Below are positions 9,596 to 56,493 of a stretch of 64,000 nucleotides of DNA, piece by piece; the stretch's first letter is position 1; the number at the start of each line of letters is the position of its first letter. Source of the DNA: Desulfatitalea sp. BRH_c12 (GTDB lineage Bacteria > Desulfobacterota > Desulfobacteria > Desulfobacterales > Desulfosarcinaceae); contig LADR01000049.1 of assembly GCA_000961655.1 (NCBI GenBank), positions 1 to 64,000 on the forward strand, given 5' to 3'. The notes beneath the pieces are model-generated. The model was not told the DNA's origin, ran no database searches, and saw only the letters and a list, made by a program, of their open reading frames with translations. The position numbers and the translations under genes are program-made.

Positions 9596-9624
9596 GCCTG
9601 ACTCCTTTAAAAATAATAGGCTTT

Positions 9625-13762: not shown

Positions 13763-13773
13763 TGGCAGCCAGA

Positions 13774-14139: not shown

Positions 14140-14215
14140 GGGTACGTTATCTCCTAACCGGTGTCACCGGCGTCGTCATAGCAATGCTAATGGGTAGCGT
14201 GAAGGCCATCGCCGT

Positions 14216-15334: not shown

Positions 15335-15533
15335 ATGGTCTTCCGATTGATCCTTGTTGAGGGTCCGCTTTCTGTGTTAAAAACAACGCTTCCCAATTGC
15401 CAGATGGGATCGCGACAATAGGCGCATCAAGTCCCCGGTGGCATATATTTTGGGTCCGGTGTCTCTGCATACTAGGACAACGGCCGTTACTCTTAATCAA
15501 TGCCGAAAATTAATGCAAGAGCATAGGTTGTCA

Positions 15534-16229: not shown

Positions 16230-16297
16230 TCCTTTTTATCTGACACAGTCTTGGCACGACGTGGTTCAACCGCAAAGAAAACAGGAGCAAAACAACA

Positions 16298-16696: not shown

Positions 16697-16741
16697 CCGG
16701 TTTGCCGGCGTCGAAAAACAAAGCGAAGGTATTCCGACTTT

Positions 16742-16871
16742 TAAAAAGCATGCACGTCAAAGCGTCCAACATGGGAGGTGTGCATATCAAATCGACAGAA
16801 TGCCTCCCTTTACACTTTAAACTTTACACTTAACACTTTGCCAATAGTCACTGGAGCGAACTGCATAACCG
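16742..16871 (-). repeat. Dispersed intergenic repeat, copy B (inverted)
   Basis: Reverse-oriented copy of the element at 6490. Its end reads CACTGGAGCGAACTGCATAA on the plus strand and shares the TTAAGTGTAAAG and GGGAGGCATTCTGTCGAT core. It lies between the small membrane protein and psd, with its tail 65 bp from the psd start. A probable short T-rich tail extends to about 16738. Confidence 0.8.
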
Positions 16872-16935
16872 TATTTTAATAATATATGCTTTCGGCGGTC
16901 TAAGTAACCACTTGCGTGCGTGCGCGCGCTGAGCG

Positions 16936-39246: not shown

Positions 39247-39867
39247 ATGACGAACTTCCAACACACTCTGAATAAGGTAGACGACGTTTTCAAACGCATG
39301 GATCAGTCGTATCGGCAGACGGCCGCCGAGCTCGGTTTTGTGTGTGCAGGATGTGAAGAGAACTGTTGCCGGACGCTTTTTCATCATCATACACTGATAG
39401 AATATCTCTACCTGCGCGAGGGCCTCTCCACGCTGCCGACCGAGCTTCACCGACTAGCTGTCCAGCGCGCCGCCGAGGTTCTTGAGCGGACGGATACCGC
39501 GCAGGACCGCGCGGTGAAACGCATGTGCCCTTTGAACATCGACGGCCGCTGTATCGTGTATGCGCATCGCCCGATGATTTGTCGCCTGCACGGCATACCG
39601 CATTCCTTGCGGCGGCCCGACGGCCTGCGGCAAGTCGGACCGGGTTGCGCCGATTTCGATCGCCAATACGCGGGAACGGATCCCATTCGCCTGGACCGAA
39701 CGCCCCTGTACGCCGCATTGGCCGAACTGGAAAGAGAGCTGCGCCAAAACTTGCGGTTCACACGGAAACTCAAAATGACGATCGCCCAGATGATCACTGA
39801 GACCATTTGCATAGCGCCGGCAGCGCCGTCTTCAGGAAAAAACGATGAAATACATCAGCACCCTTAA
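39247..39867 (+). CDS. YkgJ-family cysteine-cluster protein
   Basis: About 206 residues. A cysteine-rich metal-site pattern of the CxxCxxxCC kind (FVCAGCEENCC, about 32-42) with later CPLNIDGRCIVYAHRPMICRLHG, the conserved 'YxxRPxxCRxxG' signature, and a further Cys in GPGCADF. Such proteins are thought to bind zinc or an Fe-S cluster; the function is unknown. Start ATG 39247 (a GTG at 39235 is possible). Overlaps the next YkgJ gene by 23 bp. Confidence 0.85.
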   Translation: MTNFQHTLNKVDDVFKRMDQSYRQTAAELGFVCAGCEENCCRTLFHHHTLIEYLYLREGLSTLPTELHRLAVQRAAEVLERTDTAQDRAVKRMCPLNIDGRCIVYAHRPMICRLHGIPHSLRRPDGLRQVGPGCADFDRQYAGTDPIRLDRTPLYAALAELERELRQNLRFTRKLKMTIAQMITETICIAPAAPSSGKNDEIHQHP

Positions 39868-40630
39868 ACTTGACCAGATCCCGGGGCGCCCACTGGCGGC
39901 CAGCGACACATTCGACTTCCGCTGCCATGCGGGTTTAGCGTGCTTTACCCAATGCTGCCGCAATCTGAATTTGTTTCTATACCCGTATGACGTGCTGCGC
40001 CTGAAACAAAACCTGGGCATCGAATCCGATCGCTTCATCGACCAGCATGTGGATGTCGTCCTGCGCGACGGCCATCATTTTCCCGAAGTGCTCCTGAAAA
40101 TGGCCGAAAACGACCAGCGCACCTGCCCTTTCCTGGAAAGCGAAGGATGCCGCGTTTACCCCGACCGGCCCCATACCTGCCGCACCTTTCCCGTAGAGCA
40201 AGGGGTGCTGTTCGACGCGGCGACCGGAGGGAGCACAGCGGTCTCTTTTTTCCGCCCGCCCGATTTCTGTCTGGGGCAACATGAAAGTCAGCAATGGACA
40301 GTGGCGGCCTGGAATCGAGATCAGGAAGCTCAACGCCATCACACGATCAATTTGCGCTGGGCGGAAGTCCGCCGCCTTTTCGAGAACGACCCGTGGGGCG
40401 CTGAGGGGCCGCAGGGCGCCAAAGCCCGCATGGCTTTCATGGCCGCCTACAACCTGGATCGCTTCAGGGAATTTATCTTCGACAGCAGCTTTCTGAAACG
40501 CTACCATGTCCAGTCCGCGCTGGTCAAAAAGATGAAAAAGGGTGACGAAGCATTGCTGACCTTCGGCTTCGAGTGGATTCGCCATTTCATCTGGGGCATC
40601 TCCTCTGCCCAGATTCGGCCCCGACGCTGA
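39845..40630 (+). CDS. YkgJ-family cysteine-cluster protein, second copy
   Basis: 261 residues. Cysteine cluster RCHAGLACFTQCCRNLNLFL (about 26-40), followed by CPFLESEGCRVYPDRPHTCRTFP and a C-terminal DFCLGQ. Longer than the preceding YkgJ protein by an extra C-terminal helical half containing NLDRFREFIFDSSF. It overlaps the upstream YkgJ gene by 23 bp, so the two are coupled. It is closer to the YkgJ protein at 55753 (shared LNxxLxPYDVLxL segment) than to its neighbour. Confidence 0.87.
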   Translation: MKYISTLKLDQIPGRPLAASDTFDFRCHAGLACFTQCCRNLNLFLYPYDVLRLKQNLGIESDRFIDQHVDVVLRDGHHFPEVLLKMAENDQRTCPFLESEGCRVYPDRPHTCRTFPVEQGVLFDAATGGSTAVSFFRPPDFCLGQHESQQWTVAAWNRDQEAQRHHTINLRWAEVRRLFENDPWGAEGPQGAKARMAFMAAYNLDRFREFIFDSSFLKRYHVQSALVKKMKKGDEALLTFGFEWIRHFIWGISSAQIRPRR

Positions 40631-42373: not shown

Positions 42374-42868
42374 TTACGAGGCCCCTTGCGCAGCAGACCG
42401 AATCCGGCGGCCTTTCCAGCCATACAGCAGGCCCGACAGGCCGAAAATGATCGAAAAACCAGTAATGATATTTGCTGCTCGGCTGCGCGCGGCTCGCAGC
42501 GGTACATTCGGCGCGGCCAAAGCGTCCGCCGCATCACCGCCCTCGGCCACTGTAAGGTCCAGGCGCAACCGATGACCCATGCCATCGGTGACCACGGCCT
42601 GCCAGCGGCCGGTGCTGTCGGGCCTGAACATCATGACGCCGTTACGATCGGTGCGGCCGGTTTGAAATGCGATCTGAGCATTGGGCGGCGTGATCTCCAC
42701 GGCCGCGTAACACATAGGTTCGCCGTCATCGTACACGGCCGTGACCAGATAGCCCTGGGCCGGTGCGATGGAACCCTCCACGCCGTGACAACCGCCCGGC
42801 GGTGATCGCAGCAAAAGGATCCCCAGAATCACTGTTGCAATGATGGACGCTCTGCCAGTAGTTTTCAT
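42374..42868 (-). CDS. Small periplasmic anchored protein, NikL-like
   Basis: 164 residues from ATG 42868, 1 bp after the permease stop, behind GAGGAG. Signal peptide (residues 1-25), then an Ig-like/carboxypeptidase-regulatory domain (GYLVTAVYDDGEPMCYAAVE ... TDRNGVMMFRPDSTGRW), and a C-terminal membrane helix (about 127-148, NIITGFSIIFGLSGLLYG). This layout resembles NikL, an auxiliary component of ECF-type nickel transporters, often found with the DUF4198 protein NikK. That is an inference from layout and from the DUF4198 neighbour; no ECF module lies in the window. Confidence 0.6.
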   Translation of the reverse strand: MKTTGRASIIATVILGILLLRSPPGGCHGVEGSIAPAQGYLVTAVYDDGEPMCYAAVEITPPNAQIAFQTGRTDRNGVMMFRPDSTGRWQAVVTDGMGHRLRLDLTVAEGGDAADALAAPNVPLRAARSRAANIITGFSIIFGLSGLLYGWKGRRIRSAAQGAS

Positions 42869-42869
42869 T

Positions 42870-44279
42870 TCAGTGCTCCTCGCGGGCTGTTTCATTCACG
42901 ATGACCTTCGCCATTGGCGACCGATGGCTGAAGAAAAAATAGACGACCAGGCCGACGGCAATGGTAGCCAGGCCACACAGGGCGGCCACGGGCCGGCTTT
43001 GAATCGACAAGAAGATGATGGCCCCGTTGCCCAGGATGAACACCAGCGGGGTAATGGGATACCCGAAGGTTTTATATATTTCCTGCGTTCGATCGGCTTT
43101 CCGGCGGATCCGCATCAAGCCGATAACGGTCAGCATGGCGCACAACGACAGGGTGAAACCGATATAAATCAGCAGGGTATCAAAAGAGGCCGTAAGCACA
43201 ATCCCTATAGCCAAGGCCGCTTGCAGGAAAATGGACGCTGCCGGCGTCTTGCGATCCATGTTCAATCGGCCGAAAATCCCGAAGAAGAGGCCGTCTAGTG
43301 ACATGGCATAGTAGATGCGCGGTCCGGTCATGATCATGGCGCTGAGCACGGAGAGAAGCCCCATTGCCACAGCGCCGCTGAACAGTTTGCTGATATCGGC
43401 GCCGAACAGGGCGATGGCCGATTTGTCGCCCACCTCGAGCACCCCCTGCATCTGCTCGGCTGGTAGGGCGTAAATGTAGACGACGTTCAGCAGCACATAC
43501 AAGCAAATCACCGCAAACGTGCCCAATGTCAAGGCCAGGGGAATATTGCGGCGCGGATCGATGATTTCACCCCCCAAGTAGGCGGCCGCGTTCCAACCGC
43601 TGTAGGCAAAGGAGACAAAAATCAAGGCCACCGCGAACTTCTCGGCCGTAAGCGGCACGGATGCAGGCGTTGAAAAGTTGGCCGCCGACCCGGTGCCAAA
43701 AAGAAATCCGGCCAGAATAAAAACCAGAACCAGGGCAATCTTGAAAACGGTGAGACCGTTTTGAACATTACTGCCCACATGCAAACTGTAGTAATGGAGC
43801 ATTGAAAAAAGGACTATGGCCGCGATGGCCGTCAGGGTCAGTGGCGATACGGCCAAAAGGCGAACGCCCCATAATGCCAGTACCAGCGGCTCGCCCACCG
43901 GAATGGACAAGGCCTGGAAGGCGTACGTGGCAAAAGCGGTGGCTGCGGCGGCGATGGGTGCCGAAAAACCGACAAACAGGGAGATCCAGCCGGATAAAAA
44001 GCCGATGGGTTTGCCGAAACTCTCTTTCAAAAAGACATATTCGCCGCCCGCCCGGGGATAGCGCGCCCCCAGTTCGCCATAACAGAGGGCGCCGCACAAA
44101 GCGAAGAAGCCGCCGCACAGCCAGCAGAGCAACAGCATCCGCGGCGAACCCAATTCCGCCAGGATGAAGCCGGAGGTGGTGAAAATGCCGGTGCCCACCA
44201 TATTGGCGATCACCAGGGTCGTAGCGGAAAAAAGCCCCATCTCCCTGCGCAAGCCGTTCCCGTTAAGCCTGTTCTTCAT
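42870..44279 (-). CDS. APC-superfamily amino-acid permease
   Basis: 469 residues with about 12 transmembrane helices. The N-terminus has the LAT/APC motif VIANMVGTGIFTTSGF and an early EYVFLKESFGKPIGFLSGWI segment like other APC proteins (yhdG/LAT-like). Substrate not determinable. It is 118 bp downstream of DUF4198 and abuts the NikL-like gene. If the group handles nickel, a ligand such as histidine could be carried, but nothing in the sequence shows that. Confidence 0.88.
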   Translation of the reverse strand: MKNRLNGNGLRREMGLFSATTLVIANMVGTGIFTTSGFILAELGSPRMLLLCWLCGGFFALCGALCYGELGARYPRAGGEYVFLKESFGKPIGFLSGWISLFVGFSAPIAAAATAFATYAFQALSIPVGEPLVLALWGVRLLAVSPLTLTAIAAIVLFSMLHYYSLHVGSNVQNGLTVFKIALVLVFILAGFLFGTGSAANFSTPASVPLTAEKFAVALIFVSFAYSGWNAAAYLGGEIIDPRRNIPLALTLGTFAVICLYVLLNVVYIYALPAEQMQGVLEVGDKSAIALFGADISKLFSGAVAMGLLSVLSAMIMTGPRIYYAMSLDGLFFGIFGRLNMDRKTPAASIFLQAALAIGIVLTASFDTLLIYIGFTLSLCAMLTVIGLMRIRRKADRTQEIYKTFGYPITPLVFILGNGAIIFLSIQSRPVAALCGLATIAVGLVVYFFFSHRSPMAKVIVNETAREEH

Positions 44280-44397: not shown

Positions 44398-45207
44398 CTA
44401 CCGGACCTCGAACGCAAAGGTCACGTTGACCATGGACGCGTCGCACATGTTTTTGTCCGGATAGGCGCTCTTGCTGGAAAGCACGATCAGCCAGTGCCCG
44501 GCTCGGTCCGGGACAATCACGGCGCGGCCCTGATCGTCGGTCACGGTTTCCACGGGGTAATGTCCGCCTGAATACCCCTTGCCCGTCGCTGCCTGTTGGC
44601 CCTGTTTTTGCTCTTCGAATCCGGCATAGACAGCTTTGACCTGCGCGCCGGCCAGCGGCTTACCCTGGTACATGACGATTAGTGGGAAGTTCCCGCCGAC
44701 CTTCACCTGCAGGGGATCGCTGTCCGGCATCAGCTCAAGGGTTTGACCGCTGTCCGCGCCGAAGTTTTTCGGGTCGCCACCGGCGATGAGAACGGTTTTG
44801 GCCGCGATCTCGAAATGGGTGCATGTGACAGAGTTGGCGATCTCCTGCTTATGGCCCCATTTACGGCCTTCCGGTGTCATGCTGAAAAAACCTGACTTGA
44901 TCCGGGCGGTAATGATGTAGGCGCCGGCTTTGTCTACTTTGATACGATAGCTGTCCACGGTTGTCCGTTCAAGATCGACGGTGCGGCCATCAGGATCCAG
45001 GGCCTGAATCGCTTCGACCTGGTCCGCTTTGACCGCCTGGTCCGAACGCCCAGCCGGGTACTTGTGGCCCCAGCCGATGCCGACCTCTACGGTGGTTCCC
45101 ACTTGCGGGTAGTAATTCATGGGATTGAGCCAGAGCATATGCGCGCTGGCCGGCCCCGCGCAAAGCGCAGGCAGAAGAAATAGTGCTAAAAAGAAGACTC
45201 TTTTCAT
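44398..45207 (-). CDS. DUF4198 periplasmic protein (NikK-like)
   Basis: 269 residues. Signal peptide MKRVFFLALFLLPALCAGP, with the likely cut ASA|HMLW, which would leave an N-terminal His on the mature protein, as in other DUF4198/NikK members and some copper proteins. The body is beta-rich with two Ig-like halves. DUF4198 proteins accompany nickel/cobalt uptake systems. It sits between the TP-methylase lipoprotein and the permease, all same-stranded. Confidence 0.85.
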   Translation of the reverse strand: MKRVFFLALFLLPALCAGPASAHMLWLNPMNYYPQVGTTVEVGIGWGHKYPAGRSDQAVKADQVEAIQALDPDGRTVDLERTTVDSYRIKVDKAGAYIITARIKSGFFSMTPEGRKWGHKQEIANSVTCTHFEIAAKTVLIAGGDPKNFGADSGQTLELMPDSDPLQVKVGGNFPLIVMYQGKPLAGAQVKAVYAGFEEQKQGQQAATGKGYSGGHYPVETVTDDQGRAVIVPDRAGHWLIVLSSKSAYPDKNMCDASMVNVTFAFEVR

Positions 45208-45254: not shown

Positions 45255-46931
45255 TCAGTGGGCGACTTTTCCGCCATCCGCCAAAAAGTCGCCCACGTAT
45301 AACAGGTATTCGAAGGGCTGCTTTTCCGGACCGAGCTGATGCAAAATGCCGCCCAGAGTGCCCTGCAACACCTTTTCCTTAGCGGCATAGCCGGCGCTGG
45401 AAACGATGGCAACGGGCGTATCGGCCGGATAGTGTTTGGACAATTGATCGATAAAATGTTTGAACTCCTTGCGCATGGTGAAGATCACCATGGTGCTCTG
45501 GTGCACGGCCATCTCTTCTACCGACCAGCCCGAGGCCAGCAGAACCGAATGACTGTTGCGACCTTCGGTGACCCCGGCGCGCAAGGCCGCGTTGGCCGCG
45601 TTGAAACAGCTCAGGCCGGGCACCACTTCGATCGCAAGATCGCGCAGGGCGGTCAGCGACCAGGCGCAGGGGCCATAAATAAGCGGATCGCCGCTGTCGA
45701 GCATGGCCACGGTTTGGCCTTCGGCCACAGCCTGCCGCACCAGGAATTCGAACTCGGCCTGTTTTTGATGATAGGCTTCGCAGCTCATGCGCTCATTGGC
45801 CCGCTCGGCCGGCGTCACCTGCGCGCAGGCCTTACCGTAAAAGGGAAAGAGCCGACCGTAGCCATCTAGCACCTTTTTACCCGCCAGCAGCGCTGCGTAG
45901 CGGTGCTGAAGTTTTCCGGAGGCAAAGATGAGATCGGCCTTTTTGATGACTTCGGTCGCCCGCAGAGTAGCCAGATCCGCATCGCCGGGCCCCATGCCCA
46001 CCAGGTAGAATCTGCCCCGCCCGGACGGTGACGCGGCGCGCGCCGGTGGGGCCTGAGCGTTGGCCAGGGCTTTGCCGACATAAACCAGAGACAAAGTGAT
46101 ATCCTTATCGCCCAATCGGCTGCCGATATCCCCTACGGTACCCATCACCACCTGCTGGCGCCCGAACTGACCGGCTTGAATGACGATGGCCACGTGCGTG
46201 TCAGGCGGGTAGGCGCGGCCCAGTCGCGCGATCAGCTCCGGCATGTCGCGCGGCATGAAAATAACCATGGTGGCGCGTTCATGGACGGCCAACTGCGCGA
46301 TGGTATCCATGCGGCCCGCGCGCTGGAAGGGAGCGGTGATGATCACTTCTCCAAGACCGGCCTGCAGGGCGGCGTTGGCCGCGTTGAGGGCACTCAGCCC
46401 TGGCACCACGGCGGGATCGAGATCGCCAAGCGCCTTGATGCTCCACATGTCCGGTCCGTAGATGGTTGGATCGCCGCTGCTCAGCAAGACAACATGCTTG
46501 CCGGCCTGCACGGCCTGCCGGACGATAGCGACAAATTCGTCCTGCTGCTGGTGGAATTGTTCACAGCTCCTGTTGTGCCAGGTGCGCTGCTTCTCGGGCA
46601 GTTGCGCGCAATCTGTGCCGTAATAACGGAACAGGACACCATAGCCATCCAGCACCTGTTTGCCTTGGAAGGTGACGTAATCCGCCAATTTTTCTTTGAT
46701 GTCCGACTTGCAAAAGACCAGATCGGCCCGGCGGATCGCCTCCAGGGCGCGCGCAGTGAGCAGGTCGGCGTCGCCCGGGCCGATGCCCACCAAGGTATAA
46801 CTGCCTTGGTGCGTTGCGCTGTCGGTCGCGGGGCGCGTCGCGCTGGCGGCGCATCCCATCACAAGCACCCATAAACAGATCACTGCCAGTGATCCGAAGC
46901 AGACTCTTTTTACTGTCCATGTCCCATGCAT
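45255..46931 (-). CDS. Predicted lipoprotein with two tetrapyrrole-methylase domains
   Basis: 558 residues from ATG 46931 (GGAGAAAA upstream). The N-terminus is a lipoprotein signal: a basic start, a hydrophobic run of about 16, then lipobox LVMGC near residue 28. Two homologous tetrapyrrole (corrin/porphyrin) methylase domains follow, about 45-290 and 305-550. Each has VGxGPGDADL, a SGDPxIYGP loop and a VPGLSxxNAANAAL stretch. Both carry a conserved CX14C pair (around CAQLPEKQRTWH and CAQVTPAERANE) that could be disulfide-bonded. Such enzymes are normally cytoplasmic because SAM is. Here the export signal suggests a periplasmic, perhaps tetrapyrrole-binding, role. It lies between the TonB receptor and DUF4198. 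Confidence 0.85.
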   Translation of the reverse strand: MHGTWTVKRVCFGSLAVICLWVLVMGCAASATRPATDSATHQGSYTLVGIGPGDADLLTARALEAIRRADLVFCKSDIKEKLADYVTFQGKQVLDGYGVLFRYYGTDCAQLPEKQRTWHNRSCEQFHQQQDEFVAIVRQAVQAGKHVVLLSSGDPTIYGPDMWSIKALGDLDPAVVPGLSALNAANAALQAGLGEVIITAPFQRAGRMDTIAQLAVHERATMVIFMPRDMPELIARLGRAYPPDTHVAIVIQAGQFGRQQVVMGTVGDIGSRLGDKDITLSLVYVGKALANAQAPPARAASPSGRGRFYLVGMGPGDADLATLRATEVIKKADLIFASGKLQHRYAALLAGKKVLDGYGRLFPFYGKACAQVTPAERANERMSCEAYHQKQAEFEFLVRQAVAEGQTVAMLDSGDPLIYGPCAWSLTALRDLAIEVVPGLSCFNAANAALRAGVTEGRNSHSVLLASGWSVEEMAVHQSTMVIFTMRKEFKHFIDQLSKHYPADTPVAIVSSAGYAAKEKVLQGTLGGILHQLGPEKQPFEYLLYVGDFLADGGKVAH

Positions 46932-47209: not shown

Positions 47210-49324
47210 CTACATCTTCACGCTGAACGAGGCTCCGAAGGTGCGGTCAGTTGCCGGAAAGCCCGAGGTGTCGTAGTATTCTTCATCCAGCAGATTTTTC
47301 ACATACACGCTCAGCACCCCCTCATCGAACCAGCCGATTTGCTTGAAGAGCGTTTGCTGGACGCCCAAGCTGAAAAGGTGGTAGGCATCGTTGTGGATTT
47401 TACGGAAATCCCACACATCCGGGGCCACCTCTTCGGAGATCTCCGTGGTTTCCTGGCTCTGATAAGCGTAATCGAGCAGAAGGGTGGTGCGGTCGAACAC
47501 CGCATAGCGCAAACCCGCGCCGACGCGGTGTTCGGCCCGCTGATCCAATTCGGTTTCACCTGCCGGCTCCTCGCCTTGATTTTCAAAGGTCTGCCAGGCA
47601 TAGGTCAGATAAAACGACAACGCGTCAGCCAAATGCCCGCCCAATGCCACATCCACTCCGTGGCGATAGACTTCCTCCAGGTTGATCTTGTAATCGCTGA
47701 AGCGCAGGCTGCCTGCACCAGCGCCAGAATAGTTGGCGTAGCTGCTGTTGGAAGCAATATAGTCCTTGATGCGGTAGAAAGCGTAATTGGCCTTGAAGGC
47801 GATGTCGCCCCAAAGGCGGCGGTTGAACACGAGGTCGTAGCCGATACCGTTCTCGGGCGCGAGCCATGCGCCGGCCGGGCGGCCCTGCGGGTTGTAATCG
47901 CCATGTGCGTCAGGGGCGCGCCAGATCTTGCTGATGCCCGCCGAAAGCGATGTATCGCGCAGCCAGGGGGCCAAGCCGTCCATCTTGTATGTGGCGAAAG
48001 ATTTAGGGATCAATTCGTCCCAATGGCGATCGATCCATTGCCCTCTGCCTGGGATAGAATTCGCACCTGAATTGCTGACGCGGATCTCGACATCTTCATG
48101 ACGCAATCCCACCTTCAAATCCAGCGCCGGCACGATGGTCCACTGGTGTTGCAGGTAAGTGCCCTGCTTGTCGACCCGCTTTGTTTTGGCGTCGTCGATG
48201 CCGTCGTCGTATAATTGCGCGATATCGAATCCCACGGTGGTCAGATGATTGACCGACCAGCGGATGGCATCCTGAATTTTACCGCCCTGCTGCCACCATT
48301 CGGTGTCCGAGTGCGATTTCACCATGTCGCCGGGATTGACGTAATACGCCCGGTCGCGGCTCTCTTCGCCGTAATACGCGCCGATGTGCAAACGCCCGAT
48401 GGGCAGGGTTTGTTCGTAGTTGAGCCGGTACGCGCTGGCGATGCCGTCCCAGGTGGGCGCCGCAAATGGATCGAACGGGCCGCCCTCCGTCCGCGGATAG
48501 TCGTCATCATAATCACCGTCCGTTTGGCCGGGATTGTTAACGGCTGCCTGACGGTCCACATCTGAATAGACAGCGCTCAGCGCGATAAACCCGTCCAATG
48601 GCAACACGTACCCGATGCGGCCGTAGACATTGTCGATATCGATGGCATTGTTGCGCAGATAGCCATCTGTGGCGTATTTCTGGTACGCCAGATCGTAGGT
48701 GACCGCATTCACGGCGCCTCGAAGGGTCATCTGGTGGGTCTGCGTCTCGTAGGTGCCGTAGCTGGTGGTCAATTGCATCTCCGGCTTGAGACGCTCGCGT
48801 CGGCGCGGCGATTGGGAAACAAGGTTGAGCACGCCGCCGATGCTTTTGCTATCGTACAAGGCCGAATGGGGGCCTGGCAGAATTTCGATCCGGTCGATCA
48901 GAAAGGCCGGTAGCAAAGCATAATCCACGATGTTGCTGGATTTGCGGCCGCCGGTTTTCTGGGTGGTCAGGCTGTCGAGCGCCGTCACGAATCGTTGGCT
49001 ATCAAAACCGCGCAGATGAATACTGTCGACGCCTGGGTCCAGGTTGGTCTCCCCGCGAAAATCGATCGACGCCTGGGTCCTGAGAACATCCAACACGCTG
49101 TCGGGCACGCCGATGGTGGTGAAGGTATCGACGTCAATCACCGTTTCGCTGGGGCTGATCGTCTGGCCGGGAGCGCCCCCCTTTTCGTGCACCACCACAT
49201 CTTCCAGCCGCTCGATCTGCGCCGGTTCATCATCGGCCCATACCGGGGTCCAGCCCCAAACAACTACGGCCGCAACTGCGACAACCCATGGAAAAACATT
49301 GCCATACCGTTTGAACGCGTGCAT
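47210..49324 (-). CDS. TonB-dependent outer-membrane receptor
   Basis: 704 residues from ATG 49324 with AGGAGG. Signal peptide about 1-31, TonB-box-like segment LEDVVVHEKG, then the plug (PDSVLDVLRTQASIDFRGE, RGFDSQRFV, RIEILPGPHSALYDSKSIGG) and a beta-barrel of about 550 residues. The C-terminus ends ...FGASFSVKM, with Met where Phe or Trp is usual. The ligand is not shown by sequence. Its position between a TonB energy module with CooT and a tetrapyrrole-methylase lipoprotein suggests a nickel/cobalt or metal-tetrapyrrole substrate (inference). Confidence 0.93.
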   Translation of the reverse strand: MHAFKRYGNVFPWVVAVAAVVVWGWTPVWADDEPAQIERLEDVVVHEKGGAPGQTISPSETVIDVDTFTTIGVPDSVLDVLRTQASIDFRGETNLDPGVDSIHLRGFDSQRFVTALDSLTTQKTGGRKSSNIVDYALLPAFLIDRIEILPGPHSALYDSKSIGGVLNLVSQSPRRRERLKPEMQLTTSYGTYETQTHQMTLRGAVNAVTYDLAYQKYATDGYLRNNAIDIDNVYGRIGYVLPLDGFIALSAVYSDVDRQAAVNNPGQTDGDYDDDYPRTEGGPFDPFAAPTWDGIASAYRLNYEQTLPIGRLHIGAYYGEESRDRAYYVNPGDMVKSHSDTEWWQQGGKIQDAIRWSVNHLTTVGFDIAQLYDDGIDDAKTKRVDKQGTYLQHQWTIVPALDLKVGLRHEDVEIRVSNSGANSIPGRGQWIDRHWDELIPKSFATYKMDGLAPWLRDTSLSAGISKIWRAPDAHGDYNPQGRPAGAWLAPENGIGYDLVFNRRLWGDIAFKANYAFYRIKDYIASNSSYANYSGAGAGSLRFSDYKINLEEVYRHGVDVALGGHLADALSFYLTYAWQTFENQGEEPAGETELDQRAEHRVGAGLRYAVFDRTTLLLDYAYQSQETTEISEEVAPDVWDFRKIHNDAYHLFSLGVQQTLFKQIGWFDEGVLSVYVKNLLDEEYYDTSGFPATDRTFGASFSVKM

Positions 49325-49505: not shown

Positions 49506-49694
49506 CTACTGGGTAAAAACGATCCTGTGATCGACCAGGTTCATGCCTTTCAGGCGGCCCTGGATCAATTTCTGCTCGCCGAAAATCGTGACCAGCCGGA
49601 ACCCGCCTTCGTCCAGGGGTTCGACAATATCCACCGATTCGAGCACCAGGGCTTCAACGCCGTCTTTTTCGATGTACACATTGGCTTCACACAT
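49506..49694 (-). CDS. cooT: CooT-family nickel-binding protein
   Basis: 62 residues from ATG 49694, with AAGGAGGTG upstream. The conserved N-terminal MCEANVYI (Cys2 is the nickel ligand in Rhodospirillum CooT) and ESVDIVEP, IFGEQKLIQGRLK, LVDHRIVF match the family. CooT helps load nickel into carbon monoxide dehydrogenase; here no cooS is nearby, so a general nickel role is inferred. It overlaps DUF3842 by 8 bp. A longer frame to 49772 is not the start. Confidence 0.88.
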   Translation of the reverse strand: MCEANVYIEKDGVEALVLESVDIVEPLDEGGFRLVTIFGEQKLIQGRLKGMNLVDHRIVFTQ

Positions 49695-50139
49695 GCTTGA
49701 ACACCTCCTTGATTTCCTTCGCCACCAGACGTTGGACAAAGTGGGGCAAGGGCTCATTGACAATGCCGACAATATGAATGCGCTCTTGAGAGAGCGGCAG
49801 TAGTATTTTGACGGCCGGACTGGACGTGATCGCTTCCGCCATTCGAGGTGTCACTTCACCGAGCATGGCGTTGGCCCATGTAATGGCGACGGTGCCGATA
49901 ATGCAATCCGTCCGTTCGACCATGAAACAGATGGCGTTTTCGCCCGAGGCGCCTTTGTTGGCGCCGGCCCTGAGCATCTGGGCCGTGGCAATGGCATTGG
50001 TGCCCAGGGCGATCAGTTCCAGGGTCTCCCCATAGGCCGCTCTGAGATATTTGATCAAGGTTGCGCCGATGCCGCCGCCTTGGCCGTCGATGATGCAGAT
50101 TTGTTTGCCCACTGGCAATTTGCCTTTCTCTTCGTTCAA
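49687..50139 (-). CDS. DUF3842 family protein
   Basis: 150 residues if it starts at TTG 50139, which overlaps the TPR-gene stop (TTGA); a GTG at 50112 (VGKQICIIDGQGGGIG) is the more usual family N-terminus. A Gly-rich IDGQGGGIGATLIKYL loop and a Rossmann-like pattern with ALGTNAIATAQML are present. DUF3842 genes commonly accompany CooT-like genes; the function is unknown. The overlap with cooT indicates coupling. Confidence 0.85.
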   Translation of the reverse strand: MNEEKGKLPVGKQICIIDGQGGGIGATLIKYLRAAYGETLELIALGTNAIATAQMLRAGANKGASGENAICFMVERTDCIIGTVAITWANAMLGEVTPRMAEAITSSPAVKILLPLSQERIHIVGIVNEPLPHFVQRLVAKEIKEVFKHV

Positions 50140-51473
50140 TTAACCGCCTGCAGCTGCCGCACGGCCGTCAAAGCCGCCTTGCGCTGGGGACTAAAGCCGG
50201 CGGCGCGTTCAAACGCCTGTCGGCTTGCGGCGATATCGTTGGCCTGCCAGGCGGCATAGCCCGCCATCAGCCAAGCCCGTCCTGAACGCGCATCGTCGCC
50301 ACGGGCGGCTTGCCGATAGGCCGCCATGGCTTCAGCATAGCGTTTCATTTCATAGAGCACGTCGGCCCTGAGCATCAGCAGCTCAGCATCCGTTTTGGCG
50401 TGAACACTTTGCTCCAGCTGCTTCAGTGCGGACTCGGGGTCACCAATCCGACGGTAGGCCGTCACGAGCTTTTTAAGCAGGTGGCCATCCTGATTTTCTT
50501 TCAACAGGGCCGCATAAATCTGCGCCGCCTGGCCGGGAATGCCCGCCTGCAGGCTCAGATCGGCCCACAATTTTTTTTCGTCGGCTGACAACGGTGTCAG
50601 ATAGCCGTAAATGGTCAACGCAGCCAAAGCTTTTTCATAATTGCCGGCCGCGGTCTGGATTTGGCCGAGCACCTTCCACCATAGGGTTTCCTCCGGCGCC
50701 GCGCGGGCCAGTGCCAAGGCATAGTGGCCGGCCTCGGCGTACAGGCGCAGCTGCATGTACTGGTAGAGCAGGATCTCCTGCCAGCGAATGCGATTTGCGC
50801 CGGTGTGCAGTCTGATGAGCGCCTTGATGTGAGGCAAGGCACGCCGGCTCTGGCCGTCGGCCAGTAACGCGTGAACCCAATGTTCGCGCCAAACCGGCTG
50901 GATCTGGGACGCATGCGCCTGCCCCAACTGCTCGAAAGCGGCGATCGCCTGGGCATACTTTTGGGCCATGAGATAGGCGGCCGCGCTGTAATATAGGTGT
51001 TCCGGCTGCTTGTTTTCGGAACGCCGGTACGCTTCGGCGAAATGTTGCGCTGCTTGGACGGGTTGACCGCCTTCATAGCAGGCTTTGGCCAGATTGAGCC
51101 AGGCTGGAACCATCTCCGGCCGGCAGACCGTGACCAATGCGAAAGCTTTTTGGGCTTGCGGGTAGCGCTCTTGCAGCAGGTAGCAATTGCCCAGGGCAAA
51201 GTAAATCATGGGGTGGTGATGCGCATCGCTGCCCGACGCCCCGCCGGCAGGCTCCGGACCGCCGCGGGACTGGAACGCGCGCAGCTGCGCGATGGCGCGA
51301 TCATACTGCTTCTGATCAAGCAAACGGCTGACATCGTTGAGCACGATACGCACCGATGCAGGCACTTCGCTGGCGGCGGTTTCCGCCAGCGCCTGCGTCA
51401 GATTCAGAAATACGGTCGTCGTGAGTATGATCAGCGTCAGAACGGCCATGGCCCTAAAAGCATGTACCCTCAT
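50136..51473 (-). CDS. Periplasmic TPR protein of the TonB module
   Basis: 445 residues from ATG 51473 (GAGGATGCC upstream). Signal peptide about 1-31 (AVLTLIILTTTVFLNLTQALA), then tetratricopeptide-like repeats throughout (for example YYSAAAYLMAQKYAQAIAAF, AGYAAWQANDIAASRQAFER). A TPR gene in this place closes the Vibrio TonB2 operon (DUF3450-TtpC-ExbB-ExbD-TonB-TPR). It may scaffold the complex in the periplasm. Confidence 0.85.
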   Translation of the reverse strand: MRVHAFRAMAVLTLIILTTTVFLNLTQALAETAASEVPASVRIVLNDVSRLLDQKQYDRAIAQLRAFQSRGGPEPAGGASGSDAHHHPMIYFALGNCYLLQERYPQAQKAFALVTVCRPEMVPAWLNLAKACYEGGQPVQAAQHFAEAYRRSENKQPEHLYYSAAAYLMAQKYAQAIAAFEQLGQAHASQIQPVWREHWVHALLADGQSRRALPHIKALIRLHTGANRIRWQEILLYQYMQLRLYAEAGHYALALARAAPEETLWWKVLGQIQTAAGNYEKALAALTIYGYLTPLSADEKKLWADLSLQAGIPGQAAQIYAALLKENQDGHLLKKLVTAYRRIGDPESALKQLEQSVHAKTDAELLMLRADVLYEMKRYAEAMAAYRQAARGDDARSGRAWLMAGYAAWQANDIAASRQAFERAAGFSPQRKAALTAVRQLQAVN

Positions 51474-51480
51474 GGCATCC

Positions 51481-52176
51481 TCAATCCAATTCAAAATGGA
51501 TGGTGGTTTCGGCCCACACTTTGACGGGGCGGCCTTGCACTGTACCCGGCTGAAAACGCCAACCGGACACACAACGGATCACACTGTCGTCGAAAATGCC
51601 CGGGGACTGGGCTTCGCTGATAGTGATCTTTTCCACCGTGCCGTGCTCATTGACGATGAAACGGACAGTGACCCAGCCTTCGGTGCCTTTGCGCTTGGCG
51701 GGCAAAGGATAAACCGGCGCCATGCGGACCAGGGAGATCAAGGACTGGTCCAGGTCCGCCACGCCGAACAGATCAGGTATGCCGGCACTTGCGCCCAGCT
51801 GGGTGTCGATGGGCGGCAGGGCCAGCGTCGCCGGTCCGCCTGGCAGGCGCGGATTGATCTCAAAAGGCCAGACCGGCTGTCGGAGCGCCTTTTCGGTCAT
51901 AATCGGCTCCGGGCGGCGACTTTGTTCAACCGGCGGCGGTTGCACGGGGGGTCGCGCCACCGGGGTTTCCGGTCGTTTGAGGCGGATCACCTGGATCTGC
52001 GGGACCAGGGTGTCGTGCATCGGCTTAGAAGGCGTCGTGTCCAGCAAGTGCGGCATCGCCATGAACATCGCCAGGTTCAGACACACCGCGCCTATCAGGG
52101 CCCCCAACCAAGCCCGGCGATTGCACCGGGCAAGAACCACCCGATAGCTCTCGAATTGCACCGTAGAGGGGATCAC
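51481..52176 (-). CDS. tonB: Energy transducer TonB
   Basis: 231 residues, starting at GTG 52176, which overlaps the exbD stop (GTGA). One membrane helix (about 25-45, LGALIGAVCLNLAMFMAM), a short Pro-rich spacer (RPPVQPPPVEQSRRPEP), and the C-terminal TonB domain (APVYPLPAKRKGTEGWVTVR ... GWRFQPGTVQGRPV). The short spacer is typical of TonB2-type proteins. Confidence 0.94.
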   Translation of the reverse strand: MIPSTVQFESYRVVLARCNRRAWLGALIGAVCLNLAMFMAMPHLLDTTPSKPMHDTLVPQIQVIRLKRPETPVARPPVQPPPVEQSRRPEPIMTEKALRQPVWPFEINPRLPGGPATLALPPIDTQLGASAGIPDLFGVADLDQSLISLVRMAPVYPLPAKRKGTEGWVTVRFIVNEHGTVEKITISEAQSPGIFDDSVIRCVSGWRFQPGTVQGRPVKVWAETTIHFELD

Positions 52177-52598
52177 GGTCCCAGGCCTTCCGGCAAACTG
52201 GCTGCCAGGGAAACATTTTGCGCGCCGGCCATGCGGCAGCCGTCCATGACTTGGATGGCGGTCCCTGTACTGCTGGCGCGATCGGCCACCACCACCACCG
52301 CCGCTTCCGGATTTTCGGCCAGGGCCCGTTCCACATTGGCGCGAACGGCACGCACATCGATTTCACGGTGCTCCATGAAGATGCGGTTGCCAGGGTCGAT
52401 GCCGATCAGGATTGTGGCCGTGGATTGGCCGGTGACCGTGGCAGCGGTGGGCCGACTCACTTCGATGCCGGTCTCTTTGACAAAGCTGGTGGTTACCAGG
52501 AAAAAGATCAGCAGGATGAACACCATATCGATAAGCGGCGCCATGTTCAGCTCGCTGGACCTGCGATTGTTTCTTCTGGTAGCGGTGATGTTCAGCAT
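52173..52598 (-). CDS. exbD: Biopolymer transport protein ExbD
   Basis: 141 residues. One N-terminal membrane helix with the essential Asp in APLIDMVFILLIFFLVTTSF (about 20-39) and a periplasmic domain to the end. Stator partner of ExbB. ATG 52598, 28 bp after exbB. Confidence 0.95.
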   Translation of the reverse strand: MLNITATRRNNRRSSELNMAPLIDMVFILLIFFLVTTSFVKETGIEVSRPTAATVTGQSTATILIGIDPGNRIFMEHREIDVRAVRANVERALAENPEAAVVVVADRASSTGTAIQVMDGCRMAGAQNVSLAASLPEGLGP

Positions 52599-52626: not shown

Positions 52627-53229
52627 CTATAGAACCTTTCGCAGGTAATACCCGATCTGGACCAGCTCCTGGGTCAGCGTCCGGGCGCGGCGATCGAGAA
52701 AACCTTTCATGTAAAGACCGGGGATCGCCACCAGCAGGCCAGACTGCGTCGTGATCAGGGCCTCCGAAATGCCGCCGGCCATCGCCTTGGCGTTGCCGGT
52801 GCCGAAGACCGCGAGCACGTCAAAGGTGGCGATCATCCCGGTGACCGTGCCTAACAATCCCAGCAATGGGGCCACAGCGGCCAGCACACCGATCATTGCC
52901 AGGGTTTTTTGTAACCGGCGGCTGATCCACTGAACGCTTTCTTCTAGAATAAAATGATCCAGGGCGCGGTCGCCGCTGCGCCGTTGAAGGAACTCGGCCA
53001 CCAGCCAAGCGACAACCCCCCTGTCTGTGCCCGGATCGGGCATGCGCAGCGCGCGGATGAACGCAAAGCCGGTGCGGGCATCCATGGCGTTGTGATGCAG
53101 ACGCCTGAAAAACACGGCCCTTTCGATAATCAGCACCCACATCAGGACACTGGCCAGGAGCAGCGGCAGCATTACGACCCCGCCGTTGCGCAGATAAGCT
53201 TCCAGTCGGTAAAAGGTCGTTTGTATCAT
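52627..53229 (-). CDS. exbB: ExbB/TolQ-family proton channel subunit (short form)
   Basis: 200 residues, three membrane helices (about 18-36, 105-130, 145-170). The MotA/TolQ/ExbB core includes LGLLGTVTGMIATFDVLAVF and GISEALITTQSGLLVAIPG. It overlaps the long TtpC-like gene's stop by 4 bp. This is the functional ExbB of the TonB2-type pair. Confidence 0.94.
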   Translation of the reverse strand: MIQTTFYRLEAYLRNGGVVMLPLLLASVLMWVLIIERAVFFRRLHHNAMDARTGFAFIRALRMPDPGTDRGVVAWLVAEFLQRRSGDRALDHFILEESVQWISRRLQKTLAMIGVLAAVAPLLGLLGTVTGMIATFDVLAVFGTGNAKAMAGGISEALITTQSGLLVAIPGLYMKGFLDRRARTLTQELVQIGYYLRKVL

Positions 53230-54689
53230 CCTTGCGAGGCCTGCCTGTGCCTGTGTACGATGTTAATCAATGTCAGGGCCTTTTCCTCCATCTGACCGAT
53301 ATGGTTGTCCACCGATCGGTTGAGCAGGGTGTGCGCCAGCATCAGGGGAATGGCCACGCACAGCCCCAGCATGGTCGTTACCAGCGCCTCGGAGATACCA
53401 CCGGACATCATGCGCGGATCGCCGGTGCCGTGCTGGGTAATGACATGGAAGGTGTTGATCATGCCGGTCACCGTACCCAAAAGTCCCAGCAGGGGCGCGA
53501 TGGCCGCCAACATGCCCAGTGTCGATAAAAAGCGTTCCATGTCGGGCACCTCCTTTAAAATCGCTTCCTGCAGCACATTCTCCATCTCTTCACGCTGCAG
53601 GGTGCGGCAACCCAGTCCGGCGGCCACCACCCGGGCGACGGGTTTGCCCACCTGTTGCCGGCAAACGGCCAGGCACTCCTCCCACTTGCGCTCGGCGGCC
53701 GTTGTTGCGATGCGGTGCATCAGGCTGTCGCCGTCCAGGGGTTTGCGGTAAAGAAAGAACACCCGTTCGACAATAATGGCCACACCTATGGCCAGCAGAG
53801 CCAAGATCGGCCAGACAATCGGACCGCCTTTGGGGATCTGCTGCCAAAGGCTCACGGCATGCGTCAGCTGGTTCAAAGCGCCGCCGCGCGACACATCCAT
53901 GGGCACGGCCTCGCTGTCGCCGTCCATGTAAGCGGCAATTTGTTTGCGCATGCGCGCCGGCGGCAGGCGCGACAAGGCATACAGCTGATGACCGGCGGGT
54001 GAACAGGTCAGATAGCCCACCTCTCCTTCAATTCGGTAAGCGGCTGTAAAATTGCCCAAAGCCAGAATTTCGGCTTCGATTTGGCGCCCGGAACGATCGG
54101 TAATTGGTCCGTGGGTCAATGAAACGTGACCGCTGGCGATCGTTGCTGCGATCAGGGCCGTCGCCATTTTACGGATATCGGCCATGCCCGGAAACTGAGA
54201 TTGTTCTGCAATCGCACGCAGGCGCTCGGTCTCGACCGCCATCAGGGCCGTTTGCAGGTTCTGGTCGATCAACGCCCCCAGATCCTTGGCGGTGACCCGG
54301 ATGACGCCCACCAATTCACGGATCATGCCGTCACTGGCCGCCAGGCGCTCCGACACGGCCGTTTCCGTTTTTTCCAGATGGTGCAAGTCGCCGGATAAAG
54401 CGGCCACCTGTTGTTTCAAGTCCGTGTTTTGTAACTCCTGGGTACGCAGCGCTTTTTCCAAGGCCGAACGATCCCGGGCGATAAGCGCCCGACTGGCATT
54501 CGCCGCCTGTTCGGCCGTGCGTTGCTCGGCGGCGGCCTTTTCCATCATGGCCTGTCTGGCTTGCCTGGCCTGAACCGATCCTTCGCGCATGTCATCGGCG
54601 TATGCGACCGTGGCAACCAGGACTAACCCAAAGGCCATCGCTATGCCCCGCTTGAAAACAGCCGCCTGACACGGCATGGTCCTTTTCAT
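53226..54689 (-). CDS. TtpC-like long MotA/TolQ/ExbB protein
   Basis: 487 residues from ATG 54689, forming an ATGA overlap with the DUF3450 stop. Signal peptide (1-34, ending VAYADD), periplasmic coiled coil (about 35-135), a soluble domain to about 290, then a C-terminal ExbB-like core with LGLLGTVTGMINTFHVITQH and GISEALVTTMLGLCVAIPL. It matches the layout of Vibrio TtpC, the extra TonB2-associated protein, and its place between DUF3450 and ExbB is the same. Confidence 0.9.
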   Translation of the reverse strand: MKRTMPCQAAVFKRGIAMAFGLVLVATVAYADDMREGSVQARQARQAMMEKAAAEQRTAEQAANASRALIARDRSALEKALRTQELQNTDLKQQVAALSGDLHHLEKTETAVSERLAASDGMIRELVGVIRVTAKDLGALIDQNLQTALMAVETERLRAIAEQSQFPGMADIRKMATALIAATIASGHVSLTHGPITDRSGRQIEAEILALGNFTAAYRIEGEVGYLTCSPAGHQLYALSRLPPARMRKQIAAYMDGDSEAVPMDVSRGGALNQLTHAVSLWQQIPKGGPIVWPILALLAIGVAIIVERVFFLYRKPLDGDSLMHRIATTAAERKWEECLAVCRQQVGKPVARVVAAGLGCRTLQREEMENVLQEAILKEVPDMERFLSTLGMLAAIAPLLGLLGTVTGMINTFHVITQHGTGDPRMMSGGISEALVTTMLGLCVAIPLMLAHTLLNRSVDNHIGQMEEKALTLINIVHRHRQASQG

Positions 54690-55480
54690 CGCCCCGCCAT
54701 CCTTCCCAGCGGCAAGGTCAACAGTTCCACCGGCTTGCGCTTGGCGCCGATTTCGATCGCTGTTTGTATGGCTTGGTTGAAGGTGCGCGGCAACGACTGC
54801 CAATCGGCCGCGGCCATGTTGTAAACGCCACAGTTTTTTTGATCGAGCGTCTGGTAAAACAAACTCATGCGCCCCAACCGAAAAATATTGGTCAGCATGG
54901 CATTTTCACCAACAGTGATGGTCGCCTGGTAGACCTCGGTGGTATTGCCATATTCCGCTTCGATCATCAGGGCTTCCATCATTTTGCGAAATTTTTCGCT
55001 CACCGCCACCTCCGGATCCGCCGCCAGATCGGTTAACCGGTCGACGCGCGCTCGCCGTTCGTTAATCAGAAAAGGAAGGCTGTCATCGACACTGGCACGC
55101 AGTTGCACGATCATTTCATCGATGAAAGGGCCTATCAGGCTGCCGATCTGATCGATATCGGCCATTTGCGTTTCCTTCGCCGTGATACGTTCACGTGCTG
55201 CCGCAACCTGCGTCCGCAGTTGCTCCTGGCGGATTTGCAGGTGCTTGTTTTCCAATTCCAGCGCTTCGAGGCGCGCCAACATCTTATCGCGCGCCGCGCG
55301 CCAGCGCTCCTCTTCGCGCTGTGTGTCCTGCCGCGTCGCTATGGCCTTTTCAACCGGTCTTTCCACGCGCGAAACGATCTCGTCGCCCGAAACGATCTCG
55401 TTGGCAATTCCGTTCGCCGGCAGCATGAACAGGTGCATCCACACCAACGGGACGATGATTCGAATCGACGTGAGAGGCAA
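54686..55480 (-). CDS. DUF3450 protein, first gene of the TonB module
   Basis: 264 residues with the start placed at TTG 55480, which has AAGGAG 7 nt upstream and gives a clean signal peptide (MPLTSIRIIVPLVWMHLFML, cut near GIA|NEI). ATGs at 55438 and 55426 are alternatives. After it come a coiled coil (about 35-100) and a conserved C-terminal helical domain. DUF3450 proteins start TonB2-type operons in Vibrio and deltaproteobacteria; the function is unknown. A terminator-like hairpin sits 34 nt before the start. Confidence 0.85.
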   Translation of the reverse strand: MPLTSIRIIVPLVWMHLFMLPANGIANEIVSGDEIVSRVERPVEKAIATRQDTQREEERWRAARDKMLARLEALELENKHLQIRQEQLRTQVAAARERITAKETQMADIDQIGSLIGPFIDEMIVQLRASVDDSLPFLINERRARVDRLTDLAADPEVAVSEKFRKMMEALMIEAEYGNTTEVYQATITVGENAMLTNIFRLGRMSLFYQTLDQKNCGVYNMAAADWQSLPRTFNQAIQTAIEIGAKRKPVELLTLPLGRMAGR

Positions 55481-55513
55481 AACGATACTCCTTCCTTTTC
55501 TTTTTCCAAAAAC

Positions 55514-55569
55514 AAAAAAAGCCGCGAAAATCAGCGTTGGGAATTCATTCCCAAACCGACCTTCGCGGC
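55514..55569 (-). terminator. Terminator/attenuator hairpin in the DUF3450 leader
   Basis: On the minus strand, outer stem GCCGCGAA/TTCGCGGC (55562-55569 with 55521-55528) and inner stem TTGGGAA/TTCCCAA (55548-55554 with 55538-55544), followed by T7 (55520-55514). The start codon and AAGGAG lie only 34 nt further on, leaving little room for another promoter. This suggests a regulated attenuator; it could also be the end of the YkgJ transcript. Confidence 0.75.
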
Positions 55570-55667
55570 CTTGTATTCGTTCAAATATGTTCGGGCTGCG
55601 GTTTCTCACCTCGCCCGGTGGTTTTCAAACAAGCGCCTTCATGGCGCGCTTTTACTTTTAATGGGTC

Positions 55668-55752: not shown

Positions 55753-56493
55753 CTAACGACCCGACGAAGGGGTGCCGAACAGCGCATGGCTGAGCCATTC
55801 CTGACCCCAGGACAGCCAGGCGGCATCGTCGTTGCCTTGCGGGATCGCTGCCAACGAAGGCGCGGACATACCGACCAGACGGTTGGCGCCGGCCTCTGCC
55901 TTCAAACGGTCCAGGTCGTACAAGGCCATGATCGCCCATTGCTGGTGTTCTTGATCGAGCGGTCCTGGACGCAACCGGTTTTTCAGCGCAATCAGCGCCA
56001 GTAAGCGATCGTTGGCCGCCAAGCCCGGTTCAGCGCCCTGCCCGGCGATCCACTCGCCGACGGTCTGCGTCCGGTTTTGCTCAAAACCATGGCAATGGGG
56101 TTCTTTCAACAGGGCATAATGCACGGTCAGGTGGCCGTCGGCGCGCGAACGGTGCAGTGCGCGCATCACCGGATAAAGGCGGCAAGAGGTGGGACGGGCG
56201 GCATACACGCTGCATCCGTCATCGCTCACAAAAGGACATCGCTGGCCGTTGGACGACGAAAAAACCAGAGACACCACCGGCAAACCGCTGGCTGGCCCCG
56301 CGAAGACATACGCATGGCGCTGCAGGAACGCCTCCCACCCCAACTGAAGATAGGTTCGCAGTTGCAGGACATCATACGGTGTCAGGGCTTGGTTCAATTC
56401 CCGGCAACAATGATTGAAACAGGCGATCCGGGGATGGCAGTCGAATTGAAAACGATCCTCCGGGGACAGGGCGATCAGTTCCGGCTCTTGCAT
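55753..56493 (-). CDS. YkgJ-family cysteine-cluster protein, third copy
   Basis: 246 residues from ATG 56493, with GGAGAG upstream. Cysteine cluster FDCHPRIACFNHCCRELN (about 16-33), then CPFVSDDGCSVYAARPTSCRLYP and a C-terminal half with helices and an HCH-type EPHCHGF. Close in form to the protein at 39845 (both carry LNxxLxPYDVLxL). Upstream of and same-stranded with the TonB module. Confidence 0.87.
   Translation of the reverse strand: MQEPELIALSPEDRFQFDCHPRIACFNHCCRELNQALTPYDVLQLRTYLQLGWEAFLQRHAYVFAGPASGLPVVSLVFSSSNGQRCPFVSDDGCSVYAARPTSCRLYPVMRALHRSRADGHLTVHYALLKEPHCHGFEQNRTQTVGEWIAGQGAEPGLAANDRLLALIALKNRLRPGPLDQEHQQWAIMALYDLDRLKAEAGANRLVGMSAPSLAAIPQGNDDAAWLSWGQEWLSHALFGTPSSGR

Follow-up and report, generated by a model that had tools for sequence, protein, structure and literature searches.

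The TP_methylase fold is shared by precorrin-4 C11-methyltransferase (CbiF/CobM) and by SUMT, NirE and the C-terminal domain of CysG, and the available part of PMC4731766 describes it as accommodating a tetrapyrrole next to an adenosyl group. NikK and NikL were proposed as periplasmic parts of a nickel transporter in the accessible text of PMC545781, and orphan NikK/NikL genes with uninformative neighbours appear in that of PMC2667541. The sections of PMC11247825 at hand report that relatives of known nickel receptors are absent from cable bacteria, in which a TonB-dependent transporter lies directly upstream of a Nik/Opp/Dpp operon. According to the available portion of PMC7689651, an outer-membrane receptor specific for cobalt had yet to be confirmed when that article was written. 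A TonB receptor is presented as a new selenoprotein in the available parts of the deep-Sep study (PMC12013277) and of a 2026 review (PMC13188914), in which neither the term 'methylase' nor the term 'DUF4198' occurs. None of the open-access titles and abstract openings listed describes an exported tetrapyrrole methylase or a link of one to TonB, DUF4198 or sulfate reducers. Extracytoplasmic tetrapyrrole-metal chemistry has a precedent in related bacteria in CbiK of Desulfovibrio, which is periplasmic and is a chelatase rather than a TP_methylase.

The gene analysed here lies in a 64,000-nucleotide stretch of DNA from Desulfatitalea sp. BRH_c12 (the window) and encodes a putative exported protein with two TP_methylase (TP) domains, D1 and D2 (Table 1). 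Its open reading frame runs on the minus strand from 46931 to 45255; the strand was absent from the original prediction. PF00590 matches the whole protein in two stretches (6e-80; 268.6 bits against a gathering cut-off of 27.8), each of which exceeds the cut-off by itself. The GPGD and SGDP loops are intact in both domains and the CX14C pair is common to them, as had been read from the sequence earlier. Residues 1-27 (MHGTWTVKRVCFGSLAVICLWVLVMGC; 46931-46851) comprise a charged start and a hydrophobic stretch followed by LVMGC, which fits the PROSITE lipobox pattern and places a lipobox ahead of the two domains. As judged from this signal with its lipobox, the product fits a bacterial lipoprotein. 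Cys27 is followed directly by Ala, which under the +2 rule would direct the protein to the outer membrane. The sequence GGAG lies 9 nucleotides 5' of the ATG at 46931; a second in-frame ATG is found 15 nucleotides upstream of it and the longest open reading frame starts at 46979, and use of either of these starts would only lengthen the N-terminus.

Table 1 Features of the TP gene and its cluster in the window
Feature	Position	Strand	Evidence
Exported two-domain TP_methylase lipoprotein (predicted), 558 aa	45255..46931	minus	ORF + PF00590 search
Signal peptide with lipobox LVMGC, lipid-attachment Cys27 (predicted)	46851..46931	minus	pattern match
TP_methylase domain D1	46125..46796	minus	PF00590, 146 bits
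D1 GPGD loop	46758-46787	minus	
D1 SGDPTIYGPDMW loop	46443-46481	minus	
D1 CX14C pair, C108/C123	46563-46610	minus	
TP_methylase domain D2	45351..46013	minus	PF00590, 128 bits
D2 GPGD loop	45969-45998	minus	
D2 SGDPLIYGPCAW loop	45660-45698	minus	
D2 CX14C pair, C369/C384	45780-45827	minus	
TonB-dependent receptor, 713 aa	47210..49351	minus	NF049945 (FCYXU type) 733 bits, cut-off 825
Receptor loop RAPDAHGDYNPQGRP, aligns with Cys/Sec site of related receptors	47876..47920	minus	alignment
DUF4198 protein, signal-like N-terminal stretch, NikK-like	44398..45207	minus	PF10670, 2e-36
APC permease, LAT/BasC type	42870..44279	minus	
NikL-like small protein, hydrophobic N- and C-terminal stretches	42374..42895	minus	NF058648 41 bits, cut-off 100
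DUF3842 protein	49687..50139	minus	
TPR protein of TonB cluster	50136..51572	minus	
TonB	51481..52176	minus	
ExbD	52173..52598	minus	
ExbB	52627..53229	minus	
Large ExbB-type protein, MotA_ExbB domain C-terminal	53226..54803	minus	
DUF3450 protein, start of TonB-energising cluster	54686..55609	minus	

The hydrophobic N-terminus is a property of the family rather than of this gene. Of 81 exported TP genes, 76 have a hydrophobic N-terminal segment behind Lys or Arg; under the same rule a single one of the 25 canonical TPs was picked out, on a stretch resembling untranslated upstream reading. Of the five failures, three are fragments, one (L098) lies at the edge of its contig and one (L112) seems truly to lack the segment. 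All 17 two-domain genes keep the segment, and its letters vary; a lipobox occurs in 11 of these genes and in 12 of the 81 family genes, most members having none. TP domains are also fused to other exported domains. L127 encodes a signal-like N-terminus, DUF4198 and TP in one protein, and in L118, L121 and L122 an Oxidored_molyb-like domain is joined to TP behind a signal-like N-terminus (28.5, 32.9 and 22.2 bits, respectively, the first two above and the third just below the Pfam cut-off of 24). The retained signal and these fusions bear out the original prediction of export, which on these comparisons is very likely. Neither a translation start located beyond the lipobox nor a cytoplasmic N-terminus finds support in the two-domain genes, and the sequence around the start together with the conserved hydrophobic N-terminus rules out a misplaced start. 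In p-distance comparisons of the window gene with six other two-domain genes (synonymous, 0.58-0.67; non-synonymous, 0.18-0.26), both domains are under purifying selection, which was stronger on D2 in each comparison; by these distances, D2 is the slower-evolving copy. This selection and the family-wide hydrophobic N-terminus rule out a pseudogene or a chance signal. A phage or plasmid origin was rejected: all matches (202 plasmid and 11 phage records) are below 60% identity, no single place covers 80% of the query and those listed by name are canonical TP enzymes.

Searches with the window protein matched 9 of 30 genomes of its family and 39 of 389 of its order (E<=1e-30), and 47 of 389 of its class and 33 of 395 of its phylum (E<=1e-25); these are counts of similarity matches, whatever their N-terminus, the window's own genome is included at all four ranks, and the handles listed for order and class coincide. 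The exported family appears to be patchy across the phylum and occurs as fused as well as one- and two-domain proteins. Named relatives come from Desulfatitalea sp. UBA4791, at 73% identity, and from delta proteobacterium NaphS2, at 54%; two Veillonella matches of 26-27% identity were excluded as canonical-like. In the loci of eight genomes, a profile of exported members (built with the window protein included) gave at least 288 bits for full-length exported proteins and 134 and 230 bits for exported fragments, compared with at most 117 bits for canonical TP enzymes. A tree of the exported (95) and canonical (25) domains pairs D1 with D2 of the two-domain form as sister groups (97/97); SUMT, CbiF, CbiL and RsmI each form one clade that contains zero exported domains. 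The exported set needs two changes on this tree, with CbiL (branch 3.8) among it and one long row weakly placed; because the long-branch CbiL falls among the exported set, the tree fits a single origin of that set as well as more than one.

Like CbiF/CobM, the window protein has the TP_methylase fold and a GDPxxYG loop. The best PDB sequence match is 4e16 (1e-16), and 3nei, 4e16 and 1cbf are the top Foldseek matches of a three-sequence AlphaFold model, which at a mean pLDDT of 60 was used only for naming the fold; a single-sequence model (mean pLDDT 41) was set aside. It differs from CbiF in being exported and two-domain, in an insert whose Cys pair is absent from the CbiF rows, in the GPxxW of the exported family where CbiF has GAxxEQ, and in its TIGR01465 score of 191 bits (cut-off 260). 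With SUMT, NirE and the CysG C-terminal domain it shares the fold and the residues at SAM-contact positions; it scores 154 bits against TIGR01469 (cut-off 185), and the substrate residues R111, E114 and E115 of SUMT/NirE are replaced in most of the 95 exported domains. Among the best 25 of 32 matches, no NCBIfam equivalog cut-off for cobalamin or siroheme TP enzymes was reached except that of TIGR02467 (CbiE), for which the 100 bits (cut-off 92.9) are a whole-protein score summed over two domains; the single-domain relatives L105 and L108 reach 49.7 and 57.2 bits. The NCBIfam scores, the tree and the replaced substrate residues rule out a canonical cobalamin enzyme with a stray signal. In one genome (G493, listed as 100% complete on one contig), PF00590 has three matches, which by sequence reading and the tree are one SUMT-type protein of 518 aa, one protein of RsmI type and the exported one. 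In this genome, the exported protein appears to occur without recognisable cobalamin TP enzymes alongside.

The SAM contacts of NirE, taken from the available part of PMC4731766, were placed on the alignment through one SUMT row; several positions are approximate. The conserved GDPxxYG and the PG loop of SAM-binding TP enzymes are present. Asp105 is found in 89 of 95 exported domains and the neighbouring Gly104 in all 95, as is the Gly of the PG loop; the Gly215 equivalent (94/95) and Gly110 (86/95) are likewise retained, and the Thr133 column holds Ser in 70 of 95. Conservation is weaker at P27 (61/95) and at the Asp of GPGD (68/95), and Met occupies the M186 column in 28 domains and the next column in 63. 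The R111 column of NirE is Pro in 78 of 95 domains (Arg in 6) and the E114 column is Trp in 82 (Glu in 1), which results in an exported-family signature of GDPxxYGPxxW. The CX14C pair is present in 17 of 17 D2 and 12 of 17 D1 domains. One single-domain group has a Cys pair in 7 of its 26 domains and three other groups have none among 31, with four odd domains left out of this count. The original prediction that the domain pair may bind or modify tetrapyrroles in the periplasm beside a TonB receptor is upheld for export and the receptor link; its tetrapyrrole part is less well backed, given the replaced SUMT/NirE substrate residues and the gene content of G493.

All genes of the window cluster run in one direction, in the order DUF3450, two ExbB, ExbD, TonB, TPR, DUF3842, TonB-dependent receptor, TP+TP, DUF4198 (the family to which NikK belongs), APC permease and NikL-like gene. 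As lower bounds from gene maps of a greedy ORF caller, with clusters split at gaps of more than 600 bases and loci chosen non-randomly from similarity-search matches, 63 TP clusters in 59 loci include a TonB receptor in 50, DUF4198 in 37, an APC permease in 36, a NikL-like gene in 20, ExbB/D/TonB in 13 (an undercount), a Spermine_synth-type membrane protein in 8, and CbiM and FmdE in 3 each. After L004 was dropped as a copy of L070, 62 loci were counted; they are represented by 59 because an antisense ORF in the caller masked the TP genes of L071, L078 and L085. The window itself was scored without ExbB/D/TonB because the caller put an antisense ORF over TonB and ExbD, and the APC, NikL-like and CbiM genes of L080 lie outside its TP run. 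This recurrence of receptor genes agrees with the proposed TonB link, and export combined with operon membership is strongly supported by the sequence comparisons. The PDB relatives of the permease are amino-acid transporters. That the LAT-type permease is a simple stand-in for CbiMQO is unsupported in TP clusters, as both occur together in all three CbiM clusters, but the idea may hold more widely: several receptor loci without TP genes carry ABC genes instead. FmdE, PBP_like_2 and Oxidored_molyb in some loci hint at other cargo.

Sixteen of 60 aligned receptors contain one or two in-frame TGA codons at one loop, within the motifs PCPU (6), PUIUD (4) or a Cys with Sec near it (6), which are those of the selenocysteine TonB receptors NF049944-NF049947. 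In these 16 receptors the TGA probably encodes selenocysteine; a seventeenth candidate (L107) looks degenerate and was left out. The receptors of L089 and L095 have Cys at the Sec place. A search for tRNA-Sec in 32 genomes gave 29 above the Rfam cut-off (72 bits in the window's own genome), the strong matches alone being counted, as the loose threshold also picks up other tRNAs. Two genomes with TGA receptors gave a weak best match (G338, 71% complete; 1.8e-5) and a match that runs off a contig end (G044). The window receptor differs in that it has HGDYN, that is His, Asp and Tyr, at this loop and neither Cys nor Sec. Many two-domain loci share HGDYN or something very near it (e.g., L069, L070, L077, L079, L080 and L081), and it also occurs in the single-domain loci L088, L094, L097 and L101; L005, L082 and L086 have another receptor type. 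All four NF049944-NF049947 models match the window receptor below their cut-offs, and with the motif absent it does not qualify as the selenocysteine type NF049945.

The receptor family was detected in 43 of 321 order genomes (E<=1e-80), 14 of the 321 being above cut-off. A family TP gene is also present in 29 of the 43 (hypergeometric 1e-18, a value that ignores relatedness and sets 47 TP genomes from the 389-genome search against 43 receptor genomes from the 321-genome search), and 18 of the 47 TP genomes are not among the receptor genomes. Gene maps around 16 further receptor regions contained no exported TP. Some family receptors adjoin NikA-like, nickel/peptide-type or BtuC/FecCD-type ABC genes, with NikA, permease and BtuC matches that are below NCBIfam cut-offs. 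In L176 the genes comprise a NikA-like binding protein that scores 155 bits (cut-off 393), a permease of the nickel/peptide type and a class I methyltransferase, and L177-L179 have similar gene sets; L169 encodes a BtuC-type permease that scores 216 bits (cut-off 334), Peripla_BP_2, FmdE and a TrmO-like gene. The arrangement in L176-L179 is much like that of the cable-bacteria transporter and its Nik/Opp/Dpp operon in the available sections of PMC11247825.

CbiM was mapped in seven TP loci, and all six that were tested exceed the NF004905 cut-off ('cobalt transporter CbiM'); a single CbiQ was tested and exceeds that of TIGR02454. In the window cluster, we recognised neither CbiMQO, NikABCDE or BtuCDF nor NikMQO beside the NikK/NikL-like genes, and saw no CbiK. 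A CbiK homologue (143 bits, cut-off 400) is present in L173, a receptor locus without an exported TP gene, and a CbiK-type ORF lies near the TP locus L069. NikR control finds no support: about 1 Mb gave 5 weak box matches, compared with 16, 16 and 33 in three mononucleotide shuffles, and none within 500 bases ahead of a called gene, and the window gave a single 3-mismatch match, at chance level. An Rfam search of window positions 36-62 kb returned zero matches. No riboswitch was found upstream of TP genes in 16 loci, in which the one cobalamin riboswitch (L076) lies ~3.7 kb downstream of the nearest TP gene.

Taken as a whole, the gene context points to cobalt or nickel uptake, which was absent from the original proposals. 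We put at about even chances a model in which the window protein is a periplasm-facing, probably outer-membrane, lipoprotein of TonB-dependent uptake of a cobalt or nickel chelate. The TonB/ExbB/ExbD cluster would energise the receptor, which would carry the metal chelate across the outer membrane. The two TP_methylase domains would then receive the chelate, using the cleft in which canonical members hold tetrapyrrole and SAM. The NikK-like DUF4198 and NikL-like proteins would relay the metal, with CbiMQO as recipient where that transporter exists, and the LAT-type permease would move the organic ligand or its amino-acid part. We infer the cell localisation, the identity of the metal, the binding of the chelate, the direction of transport and the choice between binding alone and methylation. 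The NikK-like and NikL-like proteins and the cobalt-type CbiM near several TP genes recall NikKMLQO and CbiMNQO; the genes studied here differ from these in that a TonB receptor, an exported TP and a LAT-type permease accompany them, and CbiM is missing from most of the clusters. The presence of CbiM in only 3 of 63 clusters counts against uptake, as do the NikL-like and receptor matches of the window that remain below NCBIfam cut-offs, the window cluster in which we recognised no metal transporter, the negative NikR-box and riboswitch results in the sequences searched, the hints of other cargo, and the weaker conservation at P27, at the Asp of GPGD and in the M186 column.

Use of the fold for binding or as a chaperone is somewhat likelier than methylation, which would be a further step beyond holding a chelate because SAM would be needed in the periplasm, where we know of no SAM pool. 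It is nevertheless tempting to speculate that the protein is a working exported methyltransferase, SAM reaching the periplasm perhaps through the LAT-type permease for methylation of a tetrapyrrole or other metallophore. Conservation is high at the positions where NirE contacts SAM, and the permease, common among the clusters and present in each that has CbiM, does not behave as a simple replacement for a metal transporter. Some related receptor loci that lack an exported TP carry cytoplasmic methyltransferase-like genes (the class I type of L176 with BLAST homologues in L177-L179, and the TrmO-like gene of L169), and L105 encodes an IU_nuc_hydro-FmdE fusion with a signal-like N-terminus (9201-10697) beside its exported TP genes, with cluster relatives in L089 and L126. 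The Pro and Trp that replace R111 and E114 and the amino-acid transport by the permease's PDB relatives weigh against such an enzyme, which we consider rather unlikely; its ligand, its catalysis and periplasmic SAM are things that we infer. A fuller scheme is distinctly improbable: SAM-dependent methylation of tetrapyrroles would take place outside the cytoplasm, the twin methylase would finish or unlock a cobalt or nickel metallophore that cycles through the TonB receptor, SAM and SAH would pass through the LAT-type permease, and the receptor would be tuned by selenocysteine/cysteine or His/Asp/Tyr ligands, all of these jointly.

A cobamide or other adenosyl-tetrapyrrole, scavenged beside the TonB receptor, might instead be the ligand, with its adenosyl group in the SAM pocket and its corrin in the cleft. 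Such a binder suits a fold that seats a tetrapyrrole beside an adenosyl group, as the available text of PMC4731766 has it. The best solved relatives of the window receptor are BtuB (4e-8, plug region only), and a BtuC-type permease accompanies the receptor of L169. Scavenging of cobamides is improbable, however, given a window cluster in which BtuCDF was not recognised, TP genes with no cobalamin riboswitch upstream in the 16 loci searched and an exported protein that in G493 is accompanied by SUMT-type and RsmI-type relatives only. Were the fold merely inherited, the Cys pair could be the active part of an envelope redox or structural protein; a pair is present in most domains of the two-domain form but sparse or absent in the other groups, which retain the SAM-loop residues, and such a role seems very improbable. 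On the preferred reading, that of chelate uptake, a textbook cytoplasmic cofactor-enzyme fold with conserved SAM-loop residues has been placed in the envelope across many members of the phylum. It may link the orphan NikK/NikL-like genes of sulfate reducers with selenocysteine TonB receptors of unassigned cargo. It may also bear on the acquisition of cobalt and nickel by metal-hungry anaerobes in sulfidic settings, where both metals precipitate as sulfides.

Several further features were observed in these loci. Two related proteins, of which the first matches Pfam CxxCxxCC, flank the window cluster at 39845-40630 and 55753-56562. The L118 fusion gene adjoins a cytochrome c assembly-type gene, and the signal-less family TP gene of L112 (3790-4497), with no receptor in its cluster, adjoins a gene that by eye is MarR regulator-like. 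L182 and L183 have in-frame-TGA TonB receptors near acyl-CoA-dehydratase-activase-type genes, L182 also with a double-cubane reductase gene. L073 (2415-5648) encodes a large MFS/Spermine_synth/TPR membrane protein that, with its cluster relatives, recurs close to TP genes (8 of 63 clusters). Five Acido-Lenti-1 sRNA matches are found in L076 from 6294 to 17610, among TP and receptor genes.
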